Source: Dehalococcoidia bacterium (GTDB taxonomy: Bacteria; Chloroflexota; Dehalococcoidia; Bin125). Taken from it: a DNA stretch of 64,000 bases. The DNA lies in NCBI GenBank assembly GCA_022828105.1, contig JAJEJC010000008.1:1-64000 (forward strand), given 5' to 3'. How positions within the stretch are numbered: position 1 is the first letter of the stretch; each line of letters opens with the position of its first letter. Shown in pieces: positions 22,770 through 62,144 of this stretch. The notes beneath the pieces are model-generated. The model made no database searches. It saw nothing but the letters and a program-made list of their open reading frames with translations, and was not told the origin of the DNA. Made by a program: the position numbers and the translations under genes.

Positions 22770-22846
<77 letters not shown>

Positions 22847-24477: not shown

Positions 24478-25611
24478 ATGACCACCACGCTCAGCAGCAT
24501 CAGCACGACCCCGCTTCCCTGGCCCAACCAGCGCGAGCTGCCCGAGATCACCCGACCGTTGCCGGCCGGCACGACCGTCATCTCCGCCGACAGCCACTGG
24601 CTGGAAACCGGCGAGTTCGTCGACCGCATGCCGGCCAGTTACCGCGATCGCGCCCCGCGCGGATTCTTCAACGAGCGCGGCTTCCATATGGAGATTGACG
24701 GCGACTCGACCGACAACAAGGCCATGCCCAGCGAGATGATCGAGGGCCGCGCCGGCATGTGGGACGCCGACGTCCGCCTCGCCGAGATCACGCGCGAAGG
24801 CGTCGAGCAGGAGATCCTCTTCCCCCAGCGCATGCTCGGCGTAATCCGCAACAAGGACTTCGACTACATCCAGGCCTGCATGGACGCCTACAACGAGATG
24901 CTGGCCGAGTTCTGCGCCGAACACCCGGACCGGCTGCACGGCCTCGCCCTGCTCAACTACTGGGACCCCGAGCGCACCGAGGACGAGCTGCAGAAGATCA
25001 AGGCGCTCGGCTTCAAGGGCGTGCTCATGCCCTCGCTGCCGCCGCCGCACTCCAAGGTCTACTACAACGCCCGCGCCCTCGAACCGATGTGGCGCGCGAT
25101 CGGCGAGTCCGGCCTGCCGCTCAGCTTCCATGTCGGCGAGACCTTCGACGCCCGAGGCCAGGGCGGTCTGGCGACCACCATCGTCGTCGCCTTCCAGCCC
25201 TTCCGCCGACTCTTCGCGCTGCTCGCCTTCGCCGGCATCTTCGAGCGCAATCCCGGACTCAAGGTCGTCTTCACCGAGGGCGGCATTGCCTGGGTGCCCA
25301 GCGCGCTCTTCGACTGCGACAAGGTCTACGCCTCGTTCGAGAGCGAGATGACGCCCAAGCTGGCCAAGCCGCCCAGCCACTACTGGTTCGAGAACTGCTA
25401 CGCGACCTTCATCGAGGACCCCTCCGGTCTGCGCCAGCTCGACCTGATCGGCGTCGACAACGTCATGTGGGGCAGCGACTACCCGCACCCCGAAAGCGCC
25501 GTCGGCTACGGCCAGCAGTCCCTCTGGGACGTCTTCGACGCCACCGACTCAATCGAAGACGCCCAAAAGATCGTCGGCGGCAACGCCCAGAACCTCTGGG
25601 GTTTGCCATAA
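24478..25611 (+). CDS. Amidohydrolase family 2 (ACMSD-like TIM barrel) protein
   Basis: 377-residue amidohydrolase-2 type barrel. Candidate metal-site residues are Asp/His in SADSHWLET, His in SFHVGET, and Asp/His in WGSDYPHPES near the C-terminus. The family includes ACMSD and related decarboxylases or hydrolases of aromatic and cyclic acids. The start ATG follows CGAGAG weakly. Substrate is unknown; a role in degrading organic acids imported by the adjacent MFS is only an inference. Confidence 0.85.
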   Translation: MTTTLSSISTTPLPWPNQRELPEITRPLPAGTTVISADSHWLETGEFVDRMPASYRDRAPRGFFNERGFHMEIDGDSTDNKAMPSEMIEGRAGMWDADVRLAEITREGVEQEILFPQRMLGVIRNKDFDYIQACMDAYNEMLAEFCAEHPDRLHGLALLNYWDPERTEDELQKIKALGFKGVLMPSLPPPHSKVYYNARALEPMWRAIGESGLPLSFHVGETFDARGQGGLATTIVVAFQPFRRLFALLAFAGIFERNPGLKVVFTEGGIAWVPSALFDCDKVYASFESEMTPKLAKPPSHYWFENCYATFIEDPSGLRQLDLIGVDNVMWGSDYPHPESAVGYGQQSLWDVFDATDSIEDAQKIVGGNAQNLWGLP

Positions 25612-25657
25612 GGACCTTCCCAGTCCATCCTTACCCATCCCTTGACCTAGCAAGCTC

Positions 25658-27943
25658 ATGACATTCATTCGCAAGATTCAATCACTGGACGGCCATGCGG
25701 TCTTTCGAGACTTCACTTGGCCGGCCGATCTCCACGCCTTTAGCAAGTACAACCTCGTCTACGGCCCAAACGGCAGCGGCAAAACCACCGTCAGCCGGTT
25801 GCTCGATACTCTCTCCCAAAAGCAGGACCCTTCTGGACGAGTAGCGATCGAGCTAGGCAGTGACGACAATCGCACAATAAAGAATAGAGACTTTTCCAGC
25901 ACAGAGACTTCACTGCGGGTATTCAATGCTGACTTTATCGAGCACAACGTACGCGCAATCGCGGCAGGATCTGTCGAATCCATCTACATTGGCTCTCAGA
26001 ACGTACAAGAACAAGCGAATTTGGAATCGCTGCGCAGCGACCTCCAAAAGCGTGTTGAACAGTCACCAAGCCTAACTGAAAGGCGAGACGCTGCCGATCG
26101 GGCGTTCGAAAGGCACTGTATTGACACGGCCCGACGCATCAAAGAACAGCTGCGCTCTCCAGGTGATGCCACCAATCCCTACAATAACTTCGACCGACGC
26201 CACTACGAAGAGCGAGCCACGCCGCTCCTTGATGACCCTGACGTGGAACAGTTAATCCTGAGTGACGAAGAAGCCATAACGTACCTGCAACTCACCCGAA
26301 GTGCGCAACTGCCATCCATCCCGACTCCTGCGAATGACCTGACTACCATCACTGAACTACAGGCCGTGGTCCGGGACGCTCTTGCGCTGGTTGTGCTTGG
26401 GCAGCAAATCGACGATCTTGTCCAGGACTCGGAACTAGCTGAATGGCTGCGACACGGCCTCACACTGCACAGTAGTCGTGGCTCTGCCTCATGCCTCTAC
26501 TGTGAGCGAACGCCCCTTCCGGAGACGAGAACCGAGGCGCTTCGCGCCCACTTTAGCGATGCCTTTGAGAATGCTGTAGGCCAGATTGATGCCGCTGTCA
26601 CCGCAGTCTCAGACCAACGCAACCACTTGAACGAACTGATGCAACGCCTTCCAAAGACTGCCGAGTTCTACGACGATCTTAGAGGGGACATAAGCCACGC
26701 AACGATAGGCTTTCAGGCCGAAGTACGCTTACTCGACTTTGCTTTGGATCGCTGTCTATCGGCACTTCAGGCGAAGAGACAGAATCCCTTCGAGCATGTC
26801 CAGTTCGATCCTGACCTGAGCAACAACCTTCAATCCCGACTGGCAACCATCCATAGGAGCATTGAAGTGCACAACAGTAGGTCTGAGAATCTCCAGGCCG
26901 ACATCGACAATGCCCGGGAGAGAATCGCCCGAAGCATCACTGCGGAGAGTGTGCCTCTGTACAAGCAGTTGCTCCGAGACCGGGATGTGGCCCGAGTCAT
27001 GTTGGAGAGCAACACGCAACAGATTCGCGCTGTTCGCAGCGACATCACTGCAATCGAGGCCGAACAGCGGAACTTTGAAGAAGCTGCCGTACGATTACAG
27101 AACAACCTTAGGGCGTATCTGGGCCATGGAGAACTCGAGGTTAGAGTGGAGGGTGCGAAGTACTCTTTCAGGCGTGCAGGAGATCTAGCAACCCGCCTAA
27201 GCGAGGGAGAGAAGACTGCTGTTGCCCTACTATACTTCCTCCAAACATTGCATGATGAGCGCCTACCTAGAGACGAAGTGTGCGTAGTCTTGGACGATCC
27301 CGTTTCGAGTCAGGATGAAGGCTCGTTATATGCGGCGGTCAGCTTCCTCAAGGAGGAGCTTGAAGGGGTGGCGCAGATCATCATCCTGACCCATAATGAC
27401 CGACTGTTCGGCGAGATCAGGAAATGGTTCCGGAATGTGGAGGATCCGAATAGGCAGGAGCGATACGTGAGGTACTACTCATTGGAGACGGAAACTACGG
27501 ATGCAGGGCGTTGCGCGCGACTATCCCGCATTCCATCAGAGTTTGCAAATCGCGGTTCGTTGTATGAGTATTGGTTTTGGAGAGTAAAGCAGCACGCGGA
27601 TGGGAGAGGCGACCTAGTTGACGCCCACGGCCTTCCAAACATCGCACGACGATTGCTGGAGCAGTTTTGTGCATACAACTATCCCGAGTTTGTCAGGACA
27701 GCCAGGTTGGGGTCCTGCTTAGACGCTGCGCCAACCACTGAAGGATTTGAGGATTGGAGAAGAGAGAGACTAAAATCATTCGTCAATGACGAGTCGCATG
27801 GATGGCGCGCACAGTTTGGTTCTGCCGGCATCAGTCAACAAAAGGAATCCCGAAATGTCGCCGGTGACGTGCTGGCCTTCATGGAAGCTGTTGCACCTGA
27901 TCATGTGGAGAAGATGTCAGACCTGGTGGCGAAGTCAACCTAG
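25658..27943 (+). CDS. RloC-like ABC ATPase, candidate anticodon nuclease
   Basis: 761-residue AAA_13/SMC-type ATPase. Walker A GPNGSGKTT is at 36-44. A zinc-hook C279-LY-C282 lies between long helical arms (about 115-265 and 300-485). Then come the ABC signature LSEGEK (514-519), Walker B VCVVLDDP (541-548) and switch His579. The C-terminal region (630-761) carries R664-x3-E668 and H714 in NDESHGW, which resemble the Arg-x3-Glu and His triad of PrrC/RloC anticodon nucleases. RloC proteins cut tRNA in response to DNA damage or phage. The gene is visibly lower in GC than its neighbours and has no operon partner, so it was probably acquired. Confidence 0.75.
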   Translation: MTFIRKIQSLDGHAVFRDFTWPADLHAFSKYNLVYGPNGSGKTTVSRLLDTLSQKQDPSGRVAIELGSDDNRTIKNRDFSSTETSLRVFNADFIEHNVRAIAAGSVESIYIGSQNVQEQANLESLRSDLQKRVEQSPSLTERRDAADRAFERHCIDTARRIKEQLRSPGDATNPYNNFDRRHYEERATPLLDDPDVEQLILSDEEAITYLQLTRSAQLPSIPTPANDLTTITELQAVVRDALALVVLGQQIDDLVQDSELAEWLRHGLTLHSSRGSASCLYCERTPLPETRTEALRAHFSDAFENAVGQIDAAVTAVSDQRNHLNELMQRLPKTAEFYDDLRGDISHATIGFQAEVRLLDFALDRCLSALQAKRQNPFEHVQFDPDLSNNLQSRLATIHRSIEVHNSRSENLQADIDNARERIARSITAESVPLYKQLLRDRDVARVMLESNTQQIRAVRSDITAIEAEQRNFEEAAVRLQNNLRAYLGHGELEVRVEGAKYSFRRAGDLATRLSEGEKTAVALLYFLQTLHDERLPRDEVCVVLDDPVSSQDEGSLYAAVSFLKEELEGVAQIIILTHNDRLFGEIRKWFRNVEDPNRQERYVRYYSLETETTDAGRCARLSRIPSEFANRGSLYEYWFWRVKQHADGRGDLVDAHGLPNIARRLLEQFCAYNYPEFVRTARLGSCLDAAPTTEGFEDWRRERLKSFVNDESHGWRAQFGSAGISQQKESRNVAGDVLAFMEAVAPDHVEKMSDLVAKST

Positions 27944-28358
27944 GAGGAGACGGCAACCCGTCACCACGCCCTTAGCCTTTGTCGCTCACACGACGCTCCG
28001 CCATTACCTAAGAACAGATGCGCGTGTACTGTGATTACGACTCACGGGACCCTGAGACCAAGGCAACCAGAATGGCTAGTCCACAGATGTCCGAAATCCG
28101 TCGAGTCGCCACAGTTGGCCTACCCAGGACTGACCAGGACTTACCAACCCTAACCACCTCCAACCACTCCTCAGCCGCCGTTTCCCAGTGTTTTCCGCGG
28201 CCTCATGCACGTTTTTCCGCAGCGGGCCCCGGAAGAAAATTTCTCGACCAACCACCTTCCAATCAACAGCCCGCCACGGCGACGCTCGGCCGCTGCACCG
28301 CCTACCCTTCGGAGGGCGGCGAGACCGACGCCGCCCACGCGATGTAGCGAGGTAACCA
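27944..28358. other. Intergenic region after the RloC-like gene
   Basis: About 415 bases without a convincing gene; the one 109-codon frame inside has no protein-like pattern. The left part is lower in GC, like the RloC-like gene. Positions 28121-28220 hold a reverse-orientation copy of a dispersed repeat also found at 60191-60295. The region probably marks the edge of an acquired segment. Confidence 0.6.
28121..28220 (-). repeat. Dispersed TGGT-rich repeat, copy a
   Basis: Read on the minus strand it contains GGAAAAAC, then ACTGGG after 21 bases, then GTGGTTGGAGGTGGTTAG after 16 bases, then AGTCCTGGTCAGTCCTGG. The copy at 60191-60295 has the same blocks at the same spacings with diverged sequence between them. 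The conserved spacing argues for homology rather than chance. Confidence 0.7.
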
Positions 28359-30248
28359 ATGTCCGTTGAACGAATCGACATCACCCACCAGGGACCCTAC
28401 GCCGAGGGCAGGGAGTTTGGCGCGCATGGAGCCTTTGAGCTAATCCGCGCTCGGCTGCGCTATGCGGTCAATCCGCTGCTGGAGGACCACCGGCGCATCA
28501 CCGACCTCGAGTGCGCCAACCGCGGCACCGACGGCTGCGTCCGCTTCAACGGCGACCTCGTGCTAATGCGACCCATCGATCCGTCGGCCGGCAACGGGTC
28601 GCTGGTGATCGACGTGCCCAACCGCGGGCGCAGCCTGCTGCCCGGCGCGCTCAACCGCACGCCGCCCGAGTTCTCGCTCAGCGACCCCTTGCATCCCGGC
28701 GACGGATTCCTTTTCAGCCAGGGATTCAGCGTCGCCTCGGTCGCCTGGCAGTGGAACACGCCCGACATGGAGACGCTGCTCGACTTCGAAGCGCCGGAGG
28801 CGCTCGGTCTCGACGGCAAGTCGATCTCCGGCGAGACGATCACCGACCTGCGGCCAAGCGAGGCGGTGGCCTCGATGCCGATCGAACACCTTGGTCAACC
28901 GGGATACCCGGTCTCCGAGAACGAAGACGGCCGCGCCCGACTCTATGAGCGCGACTTCGAGGACGACGAGCCCCGCGAAATTCCACGCGACCGCTGGCGC
29001 TTCGCCCGACAGATTGACGGCGGCGTCGTAGCCAGCACGCGAGACCTGTGGCTCGAGGGCGGCTTCACGCCCGGCAAGATCTACGAGGTCGTCTATCCCA
29101 CCGACCGCTCGCCGGTCGTGGGCAGCGGCCTGCTCGCTTACCGCGACGCGGCGCTCTTCCTGCGCGACTGGCAGCGTTCGTACGAGCGCGTGCATGGATT
29201 CGGCATCTCGCAGAGCGGACGCTTCCTCCGCCATCTGCTCTACCTCGGCCTCAACCGCAACCCCGACGACCTCTCGCAGCGGGTCTTCGACGGCATACAC
29301 ATCCACGTCGCGGGCGGCATTCGCGGCGAGTTCAACCGCCGCTACGGACAACCGTCGCAACTTTTCCTGGCCGGTCCGATCCACGAGTTCCCGCACGCCG
29401 ACGTGATCCGCGACGACGCGTTGACCGGGGCGCATGACGGGCTGCTCAAGCGATCCGACGAGCAGGGCGTCACCCCGAAGGTCGTCAAGACGAACACGAG
29501 CTGGGAGTACTGGCGAGGCGACGCGTCGCTGGTCGACATCGACCCGTCCAGTGGCGAGGACGTTCCCCAGCATCCGCAGTCGCGCCACTACCTGCTCGCC
29601 TGCACCCAGCACGGCGCTGGCCAGGCCGAGCCGATTGACAGCTTCTATCTGACCGCAGATCGCAGCATGTACCGCCACAACGCCGTCGACCAGACTCCGC
29701 TGATGCGGGCCGCGCTGGTCAACCTGGATCGTTGGGCCGCAGGAGAGCGCGAGGCGCCGCCGAGCAGCGTGCCCAGTCTGGCCAACGGCACTGCCGTGAC
29801 CAGGGAAGAGGCGCTGGCTCAACTCGGCGATCGCCTGACCACGCCCGACGCCGACCGGCTGTCGCGTGTGCGCACGGTCGACTGGTCAACGCTGCCGCCG
29901 GTCGAGGGCGACGAGTACCAGGGCTACGTCTCGGCCATCGACGAGTCAGGCAACGAAGTCGCCGGTCTGCGCCTGCCCGATCTGACCCAGCCGCTGGGCA
30001 TCCACACGGGCTGGAACCCGCGCCATCCCGACACCGGCGGCAAGGACCTGACCAGCCACTTCGTCGGCCTGACGCAGTGGTTCGACCGCGACGAGATCAT
30101 CCGCCGCTACGGCGACAAAGAATCATACCTGGAGAGGGTGAGAGCCGACGCCGAGGCGCTCGCCGCCGAGCGGATCATCCTCGCTGAGGACATCGACCTC
30201 GTCGTCGCCAACTGCGCCGACCGCTGGGATGTCGCGGTGAGTTCGTAG
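28359..30248 (+). CDS. Large alpha/beta hydrolase-domain protein
   Basis: 629-residue protein resembling the alpha/beta hydrolase family seen in many environmental bacteria as hypothetical proteins (PF20091-like). The nucleophile region GFGISQSGRFLRHLLYLGLN (about 280-298) and the surrounding strand VSVA/IDVPNRGRSLL are recognisable. There is no signal peptide. Function is unknown; esterase-like activity is inferred only. The start has GAGGTAACC upstream of ATG. Confidence 0.8.
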   Translation: MSVERIDITHQGPYAEGREFGAHGAFELIRARLRYAVNPLLEDHRRITDLECANRGTDGCVRFNGDLVLMRPIDPSAGNGSLVIDVPNRGRSLLPGALNRTPPEFSLSDPLHPGDGFLFSQGFSVASVAWQWNTPDMETLLDFEAPEALGLDGKSISGETITDLRPSEAVASMPIEHLGQPGYPVSENEDGRARLYERDFEDDEPREIPRDRWRFARQIDGGVVASTRDLWLEGGFTPGKIYEVVYPTDRSPVVGSGLLAYRDAALFLRDWQRSYERVHGFGISQSGRFLRHLLYLGLNRNPDDLSQRVFDGIHIHVAGGIRGEFNRRYGQPSQLFLAGPIHEFPHADVIRDDALTGAHDGLLKRSDEQGVTPKVVKTNTSWEYWRGDASLVDIDPSSGEDVPQHPQSRHYLLACTQHGAGQAEPIDSFYLTADRSMYRHNAVDQTPLMRAALVNLDRWAAGEREAPPSSVPSLANGTAVTREEALAQLGDRLTTPDADRLSRVRTVDWSTLPPVEGDEYQGYVSAIDESGNEVAGLRLPDLTQPLGIHTGWNPRHPDTGGKDLTSHFVGLTQWFDRDEIIRRYGDKESYLERVRADAEALAAERIILAEDIDLVVANCADRWDVAVSS

Positions 30249-31999: not shown

Positions 32000-34192
32000 T
32001 CAGTCCGCCGCAACCATGACGCCCATCTCTGACAGATCCTGGTATCGATCTCCCAGCACCTCCGATGCCGCCGAACCTGGCAGCATTGCGGGACGTCCCA
32101 CACCGACCGGCGTCCTGCTCATCCGGATCGATGGTCCGTTGGTCCTGACTCGCCCTCGACCATCGTGCTCGCGAGTGATCGAGTAGCCGAGCCGCACCGC
32201 CCGCTTGTTGTTCATCGCGTCCTCGATCGTGCCGACCGGCGCCGCTCCGAGTCCGAGAGCCGTGAGCCGTTCGACCCACTCGGCGACGGTCCGAGTCTTG
32301 AACTCCGCTTCTGAGGGAATCTTGTCTGCTTGATCGGGGTGCGCGCCGACGAAGAGCCATCCATCGGCGGCCTCATACAGGCGGTGCGTCGGACTCTCGC
32401 CGAGCGCCGACTGGCCGGCCGGTTCGTCCCAGCGCTTGCCTTCGTAGCCGTGCAGCATGTTCGATTGCAGCGTGCTCGCCGTTCGCGCGAGCGCGGTGAA
32501 GACCTGCTGGCCCTCGCCGGTCCGCAGCCGGTGATAGAGCGCCATACCGACGGCAAAGGCGCCGTTGATGCCGGTACCGTAGTCGTTAATCGCAAACGGC
32601 TGCAGGGTCGGCTCGGCGTCGCCGTAGCGGGTCAGCATCCCGCTGGCCGACTGCGCCAGTTGCTCCCAGCCTGCGCGATGCGCCCAGGGGCCGATCTCGC
32701 CGAAGGCGTTCAGCGAGGCGTAGATCACATTCGGGTTGATCTGGCGTACCGACTCGTACTCCACTCCGAGACCGCCGACCTTGCCAAGGCGGTAGTTCTG
32801 AACCACGACATCGACTTCGGCGGCCAACTCCATGAACAGCTCGCGGCCCTCGTCGCGCTTGAGGTCGAGCATGACCGAGCGCTTGCCGCGATTGATGTCC
32901 TCGTGCAGCAGGATGCCGTTCTCGCGGAACGGATTGTCGATCTTGACCACGTCTGCGCCGAACTCGGCCAGCGTCCGCCCGCAGGTCGGGCCGGCGAGGA
33001 TGATGCAGAGGTCGAGCGCAGTCATGCCCTCAAGCGCCTGCGACAGCCGGTTGCCGGGCGCTCGCATCGCCGTTGGCGCGGTGCGCTGAAGCTCCGCCAG
33101 GATGTCATCCCGGTCGGCATCCGGCGCCTTGCGCGGACCGCGGATTTCGCCGGGCGTCTTCGACATCCGCACCTGAATGCCGGGCTGCAGCATCGGGCCG
33201 ATTTCGTGATCGTCCAGCTCGACGATGATCTCCGCCTCGCGCGCGTGAGGCTCGTCCAGCCACTCGGCCGAGTCGAGCGCTCGCACGGTCGGCGGCCCGG
33301 CCTCGTTGATCAGGTCTTCCCACTCTTGCGCCGTTCGCGTAAGGAAGATGTTGGTGAGCTGGGCGCGGGCGACGTCGGCGAGCGAGAAGTCTTGCCGGAT
33401 CTCGGACGCCTTGGACCACGGCTCGTCCAGCCATTGCGGCACGCCGGCGGCGACGCAGAACTGGCGAATGAAGTGTGAATAGGCGGCGTGGAAGAAGACC
33501 CAGCGGCCGTCCTTGCACTCGTACGGTCCAACCCAGGGCACAGGTCCGCCGGGCGCGTCGCGGTCGAGGAACTTGAGGCCGCGGATGCCGATCGCCTGGT
33601 ACATGCTGTCGTGCAGCGAGGCTTCGATCCGCTGGCCGAAGCCGTCGCGCTCGCGGGCGACGAGCGCCATGGCGACGCCGGCGCAGCCGACGAACGCCGC
33701 GTATGACGACGCAATCGGCACGGCCGTGTAGACCGGCTTGGGATACTGCCGCTCGAGTGAACCGCTGTATGTGCCCACTCCTGCCGAGACCACGCCTTCC
33801 CAACCGGGGATGGCGGCGCGGTCGTCGTCAGACCCAAATCCGGGCATCGAGAGATAGATCAAGCGGTCGTTGTTGGCCGTCGCTTCCTCGGCGCCGAGTC
33901 CGAGCTGATCCATCACGCCGGGCCGGAAGTTCTCGATCACGACATCGGCCTTGGCGACCAACTCCCGCGCAGTGCGCCGGCCGTCGGCGGACTTGAGGTC
34001 GAGCGAGATGCGGCGTTTGCCGCGATTCCAGACGGCGTTGGCCGGCGTGTCCCACATAGGACCTGAGGGGGGATCGATACGAATCACGTCTGCGCCGTTG
34101 TCGGCCAGCATCATGCCGGCCAGCGGGCCGGCCATGTACTGGCCAAAGTCGATTACGCGAAGTCCGTCAAGAGCGCCCACAGTGGCCTCCAA
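32000..34192 (-). CDS. Fused double-domain CaiB/BaiF CoA-transferase
   Basis: 730 residues, two complete family III CoA-transferase domains in one chain (about 5-380 and 385-725). Each begins with a CoA-site motif (VIDFGQYMAGPLAGMMLADNGADVI and LDLCIILAGPTCGRTLAEFGADVV). The N-terminal domain has AVPIASSYAAF (S162) at the catalytic-Asp position. The C-terminal domain has D537 in AINDYGTG, at the correct 22-residue spacing from GEG. So the chain carries one active and one inactive half, in the same order as the separate pair at 8593-9834. Substrates are unknown. Confidence 0.92.
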   Translation of the reverse strand: MEATVGALDGLRVIDFGQYMAGPLAGMMLADNGADVIRIDPPSGPMWDTPANAVWNRGKRRISLDLKSADGRRTARELVAKADVVIENFRPGVMDQLGLGAEEATANNDRLIYLSMPGFGSDDDRAAIPGWEGVVSAGVGTYSGSLERQYPKPVYTAVPIASSYAAFVGCAGVAMALVARERDGFGQRIEASLHDSMYQAIGIRGLKFLDRDAPGGPVPWVGPYECKDGRWVFFHAAYSHFIRQFCVAAGVPQWLDEPWSKASEIRQDFSLADVARAQLTNIFLTRTAQEWEDLINEAGPPTVRALDSAEWLDEPHAREAEIIVELDDHEIGPMLQPGIQVRMSKTPGEIRGPRKAPDADRDDILAELQRTAPTAMRAPGNRLSQALEGMTALDLCIILAGPTCGRTLAEFGADVVKIDNPFRENGILLHEDINRGKRSVMLDLKRDEGRELFMELAAEVDVVVQNYRLGKVGGLGVEYESVRQINPNVIYASLNAFGEIGPWAHRAGWEQLAQSASGMLTRYGDAEPTLQPFAINDYGTGINGAFAVGMALYHRLRTGEGQQVFTALARTASTLQSNMLHGYEGKRWDEPAGQSALGESPTHRLYEAADGWLFVGAHPDQADKIPSEAEFKTRTVAEWVERLTALGLGAAPVGTIEDAMNNKRAVRLGYSITREHDGRGRVRTNGPSIRMSRTPVGVGRPAMLPGSAASEVLGDRYQDLSEMGVMVAAD

Positions 34193-59255: not shown

Positions 59256-60131
59256 TCAAAAGATCGGGTCGTACCTGCGGGGGGCGGCCCAATCGAGGGC
59301 GAGGTAGACGCAGAGGACGCCCAGCGCGAGCACCGAGAGTTCGGGCAACGGTCTGAGCAGCTTGATCCTGGTTGCGGCGCTGATGAAGCCCGTCCAGTTG
59401 GGGAAGCTCCAGAGGATCAGGGCGGCGAGCGCGCCGACGAACATGCCGCCGAGGTGTCCGCCGATGCTGACCCGGGGGATGAGCAGCGAGAAGACGATGT
59501 TGATCACGAGGAAGGCGAGGATGCCGGAGTCCTGCCAGCGGCGGCCGGAGGCGCGCTCGGCGATCACGACGGCGCCGGCCAGCCCGAAGACCGCGCCCGA
59601 TGCGCCGGCGGTGTAGGCGTTGGGTTCGACCATCAGCGCGCCCAGCGCGCCGCCGGTCAGCGAGACGCCGTAGAGCAGCAGCATTCGCCACCAGCCGATG
59701 GCCGGCTCCAGCATCCGGCCCAGCAGGACGAGGATGAGGACGTTCATGCCCATGTGCAAGAGTCCGTAGTGGAGGAAGGCGGAGGTAACGAGCCGCCACC
59801 ACTCGCCGTCGTAGACAAATGCGCCGTGCAGGGCGAAATCGCGATGGACCTCGGACACGCCGCCGCCCCAGAGCGAGAGCGAGCCGGTGTAGAGCGAGAC
59901 GACGACCCAGACGATGGCGTTGGCGATGGCGAGCGCGTTGGTGACGCGGTAGGGCGAGGCGGTCGACCACTCGCGGGTGCGCTTGCGGCCCTCGGCGACG
60001 CACTCGGGACACTGAAATCCGACCGGCGCCTGCACCATGCACTGCGTGCAGATCGGCCGGTTACAGCGCTGGCAGAGGACCCCGGCCCAGGTGTCCTGGT
60101 GCCGATAGCAGGAGGCATCGCGGGAGCTCAT
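59256..60131 (-). CDS. Rhomboid-family intramembrane serine protease with zinc finger
   Basis: 291 residues. The N-terminal cytosolic part has a B-box-like zinc finger (C8, H11, C20, C23, C28, C31, C41, C44). About six membrane helices follow (63-265). Catalytic and structural residues are H126-x3-N130 in HYGLLHMGMN, nucleophile S178 in AGASGAVFGLAG, and H226 in GGHLGGMFVG. It cleaves single-pass membrane proteins within the bilayer. ATG 60131 is supported by GAGCTC and the finger's start. Confidence 0.93.
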   Translation of the reverse strand: MSSRDASCYRHQDTWAGVLCQRCNRPICTQCMVQAPVGFQCPECVAEGRKRTREWSTASPYRVTNALAIANAIVWVVVSLYTGSLSLWGGGVSEVHRDFALHGAFVYDGEWWRLVTSAFLHYGLLHMGMNVLILVLLGRMLEPAIGWWRMLLLYGVSLTGGALGALMVEPNAYTAGASGAVFGLAGAVVIAERASGRRWQDSGILAFLVINIVFSLLIPRVSIGGHLGGMFVGALAALILWSFPNWTGFISAATRIKLLRPLPELSVLALGVLCVYLALDWAAPRRYDPIF

Positions 60132-60458
60132 GGGGTTCAGTGTATGAGGCAGTGGTCAGTGGTCAGGGAGCAACTTTTTTCTGAGCGGCATCCAGGAAAA
60201 ACAGCGCCGATCTCCAGTGTTTTACTGGGGATCGCGAAGTTCGGCGTGGTTGGAAGTGGTTAGTTTTGGTCAGTCCTGGTAAGTCGGTGGTCATGGTTGC
60301 GCGCCTTTCGCGGTTTGCAGAACGGACATTCTATATGGTACTCGAGTCGGGAACCGGCCGAGGTTGCGTAGGATGCAGGCATGTCCGACCCGCAGAGCTG
60401 AGCTTCCGTGCGGACGTCTGGACGTCTACTATGAGTCCTCACAGACGGAGGCTCGTTC
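60132..60458. other. Intergenic region upstream of the DNA methyltransferase
   Basis: 327 bases without a protein gene. Near 60150-60166 there is a TGGTCAG direct repeat. Positions 60191-60295 hold copy b of the dispersed TGGT-rich repeat, with the small palindrome CCAGT-GTTTT-ACTGG at 60214-60228. The ribosome-binding site GGAG lies at about 60447 before the GTG start. Confidence 0.65.
60191..60295 (+). repeat. Dispersed TGGT-rich repeat, copy b
   Basis: Blocks GGAAAAAC, ACTGGG (after 21 bases), GTGGTTGGAAGTGGTTAG (after 16 bases) and CAGTCCTGGT match copy a (28121-28220, minus strand) in sequence and spacing. The middle blocks differ and a CAGTGTTTT motif sits in the opposite orientation. 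Confidence 0.7.
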
Positions 60459-61679
60459 GTGGGAAGGTCCAAACACTCGCCCGGCACCGTGAGGGACGCG
60501 ATTGTCGGCTACCTGGACTCCCGCTACGGCGACGCGACCGTCACGGAGATCAGGAACGCAGTGGAGTCCGAGCTTGGCGATGTGCCGGCGTCGTCCGTGC
60601 GCTCGTATCTGCGCCTGAGACCAGACGTGTTCGAGCGGACAGGACACGGTCTATACCGGATCAGGAGAGAGCAGCAGGACCGCTCGACAGCGGTGGCCGA
60701 GGAAACCGCCTACTACGCGGCACCCGCCGTTGTGCGGGGACAGGCGCGGCTCTTTCAGTCCGACTGTTTCGACTGGTTCGAGACGTGCGCCGCCAACAGC
60801 TTCCACGCCATTGTCACCGATCCTCCCTATGGCCTGGTCGAGTACACCGAGGCCGAGCAGCGCAAGCTTCGCAGCGGCCGAGGGGGCGTGTGGCGAATTC
60901 CGCCATCGTTCGACGGACATCGGCGATCCCCGGTTCCGCGCTTCACAACTCTGAGCACCGCCGATTTGCAGTACATGAGCGACTTCTTTGAGCGCTTCGG
61001 AACCGAGGTCATTCGGATCCTGGTTCCAGGGGCTCACCTATTCGTCGCGTCAAACCCGTTGGTGTGGCACATTGTGGCAACCGCGCTTGCAGCATCAGGG
61101 CTCGAGAATCGTGGCACAATCACACGCCTCGTCATGACTATGCGAGGCGGCGACCGACCGAAGAACGCTCACGAAGAGTTTCCCGACGTTACCGTGATGC
61201 CGAGGTCCATGGCCGAACCCTGGCTCCTGTTCCGGAAGCCGCTCGAAGGTCGCGTACAAGACAACCTTCGCAAGTGGGGGACAGGCGGATTGCGTCGCGT
61301 CTCTGATCGACGCCCCTTCGGCGACGTGATCAAGTCTTCGCCGACGCAGCCAAACGAAAAAGCGCTCGCCCCTCACCCGTCACTGAAGCCGCAAGCATTT
61401 CTTCGTCAGCTGGTGCGTGCTGCCTTGCCACTAGGGGAAGGGATCATACTTGATCCCTTTGCCGGCTCAGGCTCGACTTTGGCGGCGGCCAATCACCTGG
61501 GCTTGCGCAGTGTAGGTATCGAACAGGATCCCACATTCGTTAAGTTGGCGGAGTCTGCGATTCCTGCGCTTGAAGCGATTACTTGTCCAGGTACACCCAA
61601 CTCTGCCGGAGCTTCGCAATGCCATACCTGTCAAGGGTCGCAGTCTGCGTTCCTAACTCGCTCCGGGGATTTCGTCTGA
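60459..61679 (+). CDS. DNA methyltransferase (N4/N6, beta class)
   Basis: 406 residues. An N-terminal winged-helix-like region (1-70, VRSYLRLRPDVFERTGHGLYR) precedes the methyltransferase. Motif IV DPPYGL (121-126) comes before motif I DPFAGSGST (332-340), the order of beta-class enzymes. Motif X-like HPSLKPQAFLRQLVRAALP is at about 306-323. The last 30 residues have no recognisable motif and are antisense to the remnant restriction gene, so the original C-terminus may be lost. GTG start with GGAG upstream. Confidence 0.85.
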   Translation: MGRSKHSPGTVRDAIVGYLDSRYGDATVTEIRNAVESELGDVPASSVRSYLRLRPDVFERTGHGLYRIRREQQDRSTAVAEETAYYAAPAVVRGQARLFQSDCFDWFETCAANSFHAIVTDPPYGLVEYTEAEQRKLRSGRGGVWRIPPSFDGHRRSPVPRFTTLSTADLQYMSDFFERFGTEVIRILVPGAHLFVASNPLVWHIVATALAASGLENRGTITRLVMTMRGGDRPKNAHEEFPDVTVMPRSMAEPWLLFRKPLEGRVQDNLRKWGTGGLRRVSDRRPFGDVIKSSPTQPNEKALAPHPSLKPQAFLRQLVRAALPLGEGIILDPFAGSGSTLAAANHLGLRSVGIEQDPTFVKLAESAIPALEAITCPGTPNSAGASQCHTCQGSQSAFLTRSGDFV

Positions 61680-61953
61680 AGTCGTCAACCGTTACGTGGC
61701 CGAGATAGACTTCGGTAAATCGCATCGGTGCTCTGTCGACCGCAGGTTCAGACTCGTTGTCGACCCGATAGACGAACACGCACATCCACTGCTCGCGAGC
61801 ACCGTGTGTATCAACGGCGCCTCCTTGCTTTCTGGTCGTCTTGATCTCAACGCCATCAGTCCCAGCCTGGATCCCACGGCGATGCCCCTCTCCCCCGGAC
61901 AGTCTATGGGAGAATGCCAAATCGCCGGCCGATTCCAGTCCTGCGGCAGTCAT
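61579..61953 (-). pseudogene. Truncated restriction endonuclease remnant
   Basis: 124 residues with a PD-(D/E)xK-like core: D33-GV-E36-I-K38 in AGTDGVEIKTT, then GGAVDTHGAREQWMCVFVYRVD and a C-terminal block (TEVYLGHVTVDDF to YLDK) that reads like the end of a type II enzyme. An in-frame stop lies 13 codons upstream of the Met (61990), so no full N-terminal domain can be encoded. Its 3' end overlaps the methyltransferase by 101 bases, convergent. A broken restriction-modification pair is the simplest reading; catalytic activity is unlikely. Confidence 0.6.
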
Positions 61954-62144
61954 CCGGCTGGAGATGCTGGCCGAACGTGCGGAGGAGGGTCAGTCGAGGT
62001 CGGTGACGGTGGCGCGTCGTGAGACACGGCAGTGGTAGGCGGAGTCGTCGGAGGGTCAGCGAGTGGAGGAGTTGGTGGGTCGGTTGTTGGGCTAGAGGTC
62101 GCGGAGGGTGCGGTCGATGCGGCGGAGGGCGTTGGTGATGGTGA

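Follow-up and report, generated by a model that had tools for sequence, protein, structure and literature searches.

A predicted RloC-type anticodon nuclease gene alone occupies a variable chromosomal slot in an uncultured Dehalococcoidia genus

The window analyzed here is a 64,000-nucleotide stretch of DNA from an uncultured Dehalococcoidia bacterium. An open reading frame on its forward strand, at 25658 to 27943, starts with ATG and encodes a protein of 761 amino acids that very likely belongs to the RloC family, having every sequence-level character by which RloC was defined (PMC2610378). The gene alone fills an approximately 2.7-kb slot that runs from an amidohydrolase gene to an alpha/beta-hydrolase gene, and it occurs as a single copy in its own genome (G000, a 2.74-Mb assembly of 10 contigs). 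Proteins of this type are already known, and what the locus adds is the slot, the separation of the gene from restriction-modification (R-M) genes, and a serine, Ser707, at a position of the predicted nuclease site.

Motifs, conservation, and family assignment

The predicted product is an ABC ATPase interrupted by long coiled coils, which surround a C279-x2-C282 hook. On the forward strand, the Walker A motif GPNGSGKT (residues 36 to 43) is encoded at 25763 to 25786, the coiled-coil insert that splits the ABC head (approximately residues 113 to 470) at 25994 to 27067, the zinc hook C279-L-Y-C282 at 26492 to 26503, the ABC signature LSEGEK (residues 514 to 519) at 27197 to 27214, and the Walker B/D-loop motif DDPVSSQD (residues 546 to 553) at 27293 to 27316. 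Within the insert, an AlphaFold2 (AF2) model places long helices at residues 113 to 165, 301 to 329, 339 to 375, and 391 to 470. A predicted HEPN-like nuclease domain (residues 625 to 761; 27530 to 27940) follows and carries the triad R664-x3-E668-x45-H714, the codons of which lie at 27647 to 27649, 27659 to 27661, and 27797 to 27799. An earlier reading made from the sequence only had named the Walker A, hook, signature, Walker B, and triad residues, and each was found where that reading had placed it. The Pfam model AAA_13 matched residues 15 to 739 (E 3.5e-114), and the PADLOC candidate defense family PDC-S06, a computational label without a mechanism for which several models cover different subfamilies, matched the full length of the protein (E 1.7e-163). 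A phmmer search of the protein against the PDB gave no useful match, and promoter and terminator scans performed no better than shuffled sequences.

Conservation was scored in a set of 97 full-length homologs, the window protein included, the sources of which were viral contigs, plasmids, and GTDB genomes spanning many phyla. GTDB homologs were retrieved by Walker B and H-loop patterns rather than by hook or triad, and thus conservation of the latter two is independent of retrieval. Both hook cysteines were present in 97/97 homologs, as were R664 and H714, while E668 was present in 94 and replaced by Asp in the other three; S713, directly before H714, was found in 96/97. Within the ATPase, G36, G41, and K42 were invariant where aligned and N38 was kept in all but one homolog; S515, G517, E518, D546, P548, S551, and D553 were each found in all 97, and D547 was found in 96. 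We conclude from the AAA_13 match and the conservation across the 97 homologs that the named motifs are not due to chance.

RloC has been defined by the arrangement R-X3-E-X36-52-H, often with Ser before the His, in proteins of 658 to 897 amino acids (PMC2610378). The window protein has the ABC motifs (Walker A, signature, Walker B/D-loop, and H-loop), a coiled-coil insert with a central CX2C that splits the ATPase, the triad R664-X3-E668-X45-S713-H714 within the defined spacing, a length inside the defined range, and a C-terminal domain homologous to that of PrrC by hhalign. The split ABC ATPase and the CX2C hook within a coiled-coil insert are common to the window protein and to RloC of Geobacillus kaustophilus and Acinetobacter baylyi ADP1 (PMC2610378, PMC3874168), with which it was compared by the published criteria; the triad spacing, the length range, and the usual lack of an adjoining R-M gene also fit, and the window protein differs in Ser707. 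PrrC is alike in its C-terminal N-x2-R-x3-E ... SH motif, which aligned residue for residue, but is approximately half as long (341 to 416 amino acids), lacks the coiled-coil hook, and resides in type I hsd operons, whereas the 761-residue window protein contains the insert and its gene adjoins no hsd gene. The RloC layout proposed by the sequence-only reading, and the HMM check that it had suggested, were thus borne out by the AAA_13 and PDC-S06 matches, by the alignment of the triad with that of PrrC, and by the near-invariance of hook and triad.

In Rad50 and SbcC, too, a coiled coil that bears a CX2C hook divides the ABC head, and whole-model structural searches returned SMC and Rad50 heads, which would suit a DNA repair ATPase of the Rad50/SbcC kind without nuclease function. 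Rad50 and SbcC, however, work with a dedicated DNase partner and lack a C-terminal HEPN domain (PMC2610378), the triad is near-invariant among the 97 homologs, and matches at E <= 1e-20 occurred sporadically, in 3 of 393 genomes of the class, unlike a housekeeping repair gene. A repair function of this sort is therefore highly improbable.

The window protein is approximately 34% identical to the nearest homolog found and represents a divergent lineage on a very long tree branch, such that its specificity may differ. RloC-type genes were also observed on IMG/VR viral contigs (L130, L131, and L138), on conjugative plasmids of Klebsiella, Citrobacter, Enterobacter, and Salmonella (L010 and many Enterobacterales plasmids), and in archaeal (Methanosarcinaceae) and Patescibacteria assemblies (L078 and L125). 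The viral-contig and plasmid copies show that the RloC-type family is mobile.

The C-terminal domain and Ser707

Homology of the C-terminal domain to PrrC was assessed by profile comparison, for which the PrrC profile was built from genes of Lysobacteraceae genomes that adjoin HsdS, HsdM, or RhuM, as true PrrC should. Alignment of the RloC-type family profile with this hsd-linked PrrC profile by hhalign gave a probability of 95% (E 2.3e-8) and set R664, E668, and H714 on the Arg, Glu, and His of PrrC. The C-terminal part alone aligned with PrrC at E 9.4e-4; its score, 26.9, exceeded those of all 100 column-shuffled controls (maximum, 22.6). The whole protein, modeled by AF2 from a 67-row alignment (mean pLDDT 89, pTM 0.65), showed ABC-head elements at its two termini and a hook flanked by long helices, and its PDB matches were SMC, Rad50, Lamassu, and PARIS AriA proteins. 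The last 137 residues modeled alone by AF2 (pLDDT 85.5, pTM 0.83) gave eight top PDB matches by Foldseek that were all HEPN proteins (HEPN-MNT toxins, AbiV, and SO_3166), with TM scores of about 0.46 to 0.53 and probabilities of up to 0.95 but weak E values of 0.65 to 1.1. A profile search of PDB sequences with the C-terminal domain gave no useful match. The structural model that the sequence-only reading had proposed as a check thus resembles HEPN RNases, though at modest E values.

PrrC and most of the RloC-type family have an arginine seven residues before the catalytic histidine, which we take to be the arginine of the HEPN Rx4-6H motif (PMC3710099). In the window protein this position is Ser707 (27776 to 27778), the sole serine among the 97 homologs; 74 of them have Arg here, 13 have Lys, and 6 have Asn. 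The protein therefore departs from Rx4-6H, with His714 kept and Arg replaced. The HEPN superfamily survey counts the Rx4-6H arginine as part of the active site but also allows for its loss (PMC3710099), and the motif stands outside the RloC definition applied here (PMC2610378). The residues essential in G. kaustophilus RloC are R692, E696, and H737, and mutations in this triad abolish anticodon nuclease activity (PMC2610378); counterparts of all three are retained in the window protein.

One way to read Ser707 is that the protein is a catalytically weakened or inactive relative, in which the HEPN domain would still bind tRNA or another RNA without cleaving it. Such a loss would agree with the serine at a position where 87 of 97 homologs have Arg or Lys, with the place of the arginine in the HEPN active site, and with the long branch. 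Nevertheless, the three counterparts of the essential residues are all kept, six relatives have Asn at position 707, and the reading frame is intact with complete ATPase motifs, which together make inactivation distinctly unlikely. Since the triad is kept but the HEPN arginine is replaced by Ser707, we consider tRNA cleavage by the window protein to be probable rather than certain.

Base composition and the variable slot

The GC content of the window gene is 0.541, compared to 0.663 +/- 0.018 in the 36 other long open reading frames of the window (z -6.8), and its GC3 is 0.589, compared to about 0.86 to 0.88 in the adjoining genes. The lower GC noted by the sequence-only reading is real and restricted to one gene, and what that reading had called an "island" amounts to one cargo gene in a slot with contents that vary between species. 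A second, milder GC dip (0.607) was observed at 60001 to 62000. Its foreign composition and its place in a variable slot lead us to conclude that the window gene was horizontally acquired.

The slot (25612 to 28358) is bounded on the left by the amidohydrolase gene (Amidohydro_2; 24478 to 25611, forward strand), which is 88 to 97% identical in 13 sister genomes, and on the right by the alpha/beta-hydrolase gene (Abhydrolase_10; 28359 to 30248, forward strand), which is 71 to 89% identical in 12 sister genomes. The genus was sampled by 15 genomes, 14 of which have the amidohydrolase and 13 of which have the hydrolase. Both flanks lie on one contig in 11 genomes, and a twelfth (G005) has the right end of its slot at a contig edge. 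Identity of the left flank stops at or just past the amidohydrolase stop codon and, in the nearest species, that of the right flank stops approximately 230 bases before the hydrolase start.

The gap between the flanks is 1.6 to 2.9 kb across the genus, and the cargo differs among 12 species, with CoA-transferase, HSDR_N, and RloC types each recurring. An RloC-type gene occupies the slot in the window genome and in G001, a CoA-transferase gene in G002, G009, and G011, and an HSDR_N protein gene in G006; G010 carries a gene for a protein similar to the HSDR_N protein and an adjoining two-gene pair. The other cargoes are a PIN-type pair (G007), a fragment matching PADLOC Orf5/HEC-06 with GmrSD_N below cutoff (G005), a bPH/SHOCT protein (G004), a lipoprotein-like protein and an unassigned gene (G014), and a periplasmic binding protein (G013). 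Several of these cargoes, namely, RloC, HSDR_N, the GmrSD-like fragment, and PIN pairs, are of defense type. The CoA-transferase was considered as a displaced ancestral occupant and provisionally set aside: only three species have it, and in each of them it lies in the slot.

An origin by transposon or integrase was rejected: no recombinase gene lies in the slot, its ends have no direct repeats or terminal inverted repeats of note, and 2.8 kb separate it from the closest tRNA gene. That gene, for tRNA-Pro (CGG), lies upstream of the slot at 22770 to 22846, between enolase-superfamily and MFS genes, and shows no sign of having served as an integration site. Because no repeats or recombinase genes mark the slot ends, we infer that cargo has been exchanged by homologous recombination in the flanks.

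Two of the three carriers in the class, the window genome and G001, belong to this genus and carry their RloC-type genes at the same site. The two proteins are only 28 to 33% identical, whereas the flanking amidohydrolases are approximately 91% identical, which makes separate acquisition or replacement the likelier history. Quick trees did pair the two proteins (SH-aLRT 99.7), but both branches are extreme in length, at 1.7 and 2.7 compared to a median of 0.34, and according to a warning of the tree tool, pairings of this kind may be spurious. Common inheritance is disfavored by the protein-flank disparity and the long-branch join. Speaking the other way is a 3' noncoding flank of about 150 bases (27980 to 28130) that within the genus is common only to these two genomes (75% identity over 121 bases; G001:C7:85830-85951). 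We conclude that either two separate acquisitions at the shared site or an older insertion in which the coding part was replaced would probably fit the sequences better than simple divergence does.

Restriction-modification context and proposed function

No restriction gene was found among the neighbors of the window gene, as the sequence-only reading had held; the neighbors are metabolic and encode an MFS transporter, the Amidohydro_2 and Abhydrolase_10 proteins, and CoA-transferases. One neighboring gene, at 32000 to 34192, encodes a 730-amino-acid protein with three CoA_transf_3 stretches, possibly a tandem fusion of two CaiB-like domains. In RloC at large, linkage to type I or III R-M was found for 8 of 73 genes (PMC2610378), and HsdM or HsdS lies within 4 kb in at least 27 of the best 80 GTDB relatives of the window protein (L050 to L129). 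The subfamily is therefore more often linked to R-M than the published proportion, and the window copy is an exception. The suggestion of a solitary defense gene thus holds as to solitary, in a neighborhood free of R-M genes that is usual for RloC at large, although the nearest relatives are often linked to R-M.

A complete type I R-M locus lies away from the window gene on contig C5 of the same genome (L228 5012-9547 and L246 390-3497), where hsdM, hsdS, and hsdR were named from sequence and an N6_Mtase match. A gene for a probable TIR-type protein (L228 9895-10737) was observed between hsdS and hsdR. The HsdM is 78% identical to the HsdM encoded beside the RloC-type gene of one relative (L055), and G001 has no HsdM of this kind at E <= 1e-60. 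The window genome could therefore supply a partner in trans, and G001 has no evident one.

These loci bear on the idea of a PrrC-like device that would be held under a type I R-M enzyme in trans and released when a phage blocks restriction. The frequent linkage among relatives, the hsd genes on C5, and the similarity of their HsdM to one encoded beside an RloC-type gene are in its favor. G001, however, lacks such an HsdM, nothing ties the RloC and hsd loci together in the window genome, and in A. baylyi DNA breaks activated RloC in the absence of R-M as well (PMC3874168). Control in trans by the R-M enzyme is accordingly unlikely.

The published biology of RloC suggests a course that would proceed from DNA ends or damage, which we propose for the window protein. 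Mutations in the hook raise, and zinc lowers, RloC activity (PMC2610378), inducers of DNA breaks activate RloC, R-M-deficient A. baylyi included, and tRNA-Glu and tRNA-Gln are cut in A. baylyi (PMC3874168). By analogy with the G. kaustophilus and A. baylyi proteins, the window protein would be subject to zinc control, activated by DNA breaks, and able to cleave tRNA, and it may also excise the wobble nucleotide. In such a mechanism, the ABC heads would dimerize with their coiled-coil arms tethered or gated by the zinc hook, and the C-terminal HEPN-type ribonuclease would be kept inactive until a trigger acted on the ATPase, the most likely one being DNA ends or damage that arise as phages attack. 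The ATPase, so driven, would release the HEPN domain, and the nuclease would cut tRNA anticodon loops, such that translation would stop as an abortive defense. Counting against a defense reading, a survey in Pseudomonas found RloC presence correlated with phage susceptibility, not resistance (PMC12447246).

As a tentative proposal, the site may be a one- or two-gene defense slot, the cargo of which is swapped by recombination in the flanks without mobile-element machinery, and the window gene may represent an RloC lineage that became detached from type I R-M and had its HEPN site rewired, with Ser or Asn for Arg, perhaps toward another RNA target. RloC is commonly annotated as a defense gene, but there is debate over what triggers it and how closely it is tied to restriction enzymes, and the members tested are few. 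Little literature was found on the defenses of this uncultured bacterial group, for which the slot offers a compact, uncluttered example of a locus that varies and includes several defense-type genes. Moreover, the locus provides a natural comparison between near relatives with RloC-type genes beside type I hsd genes and a solitary gene with hsd genes elsewhere (G000) or without that type of hsd (G001), and thus whether RloC needs an R-M partner is directly testable.
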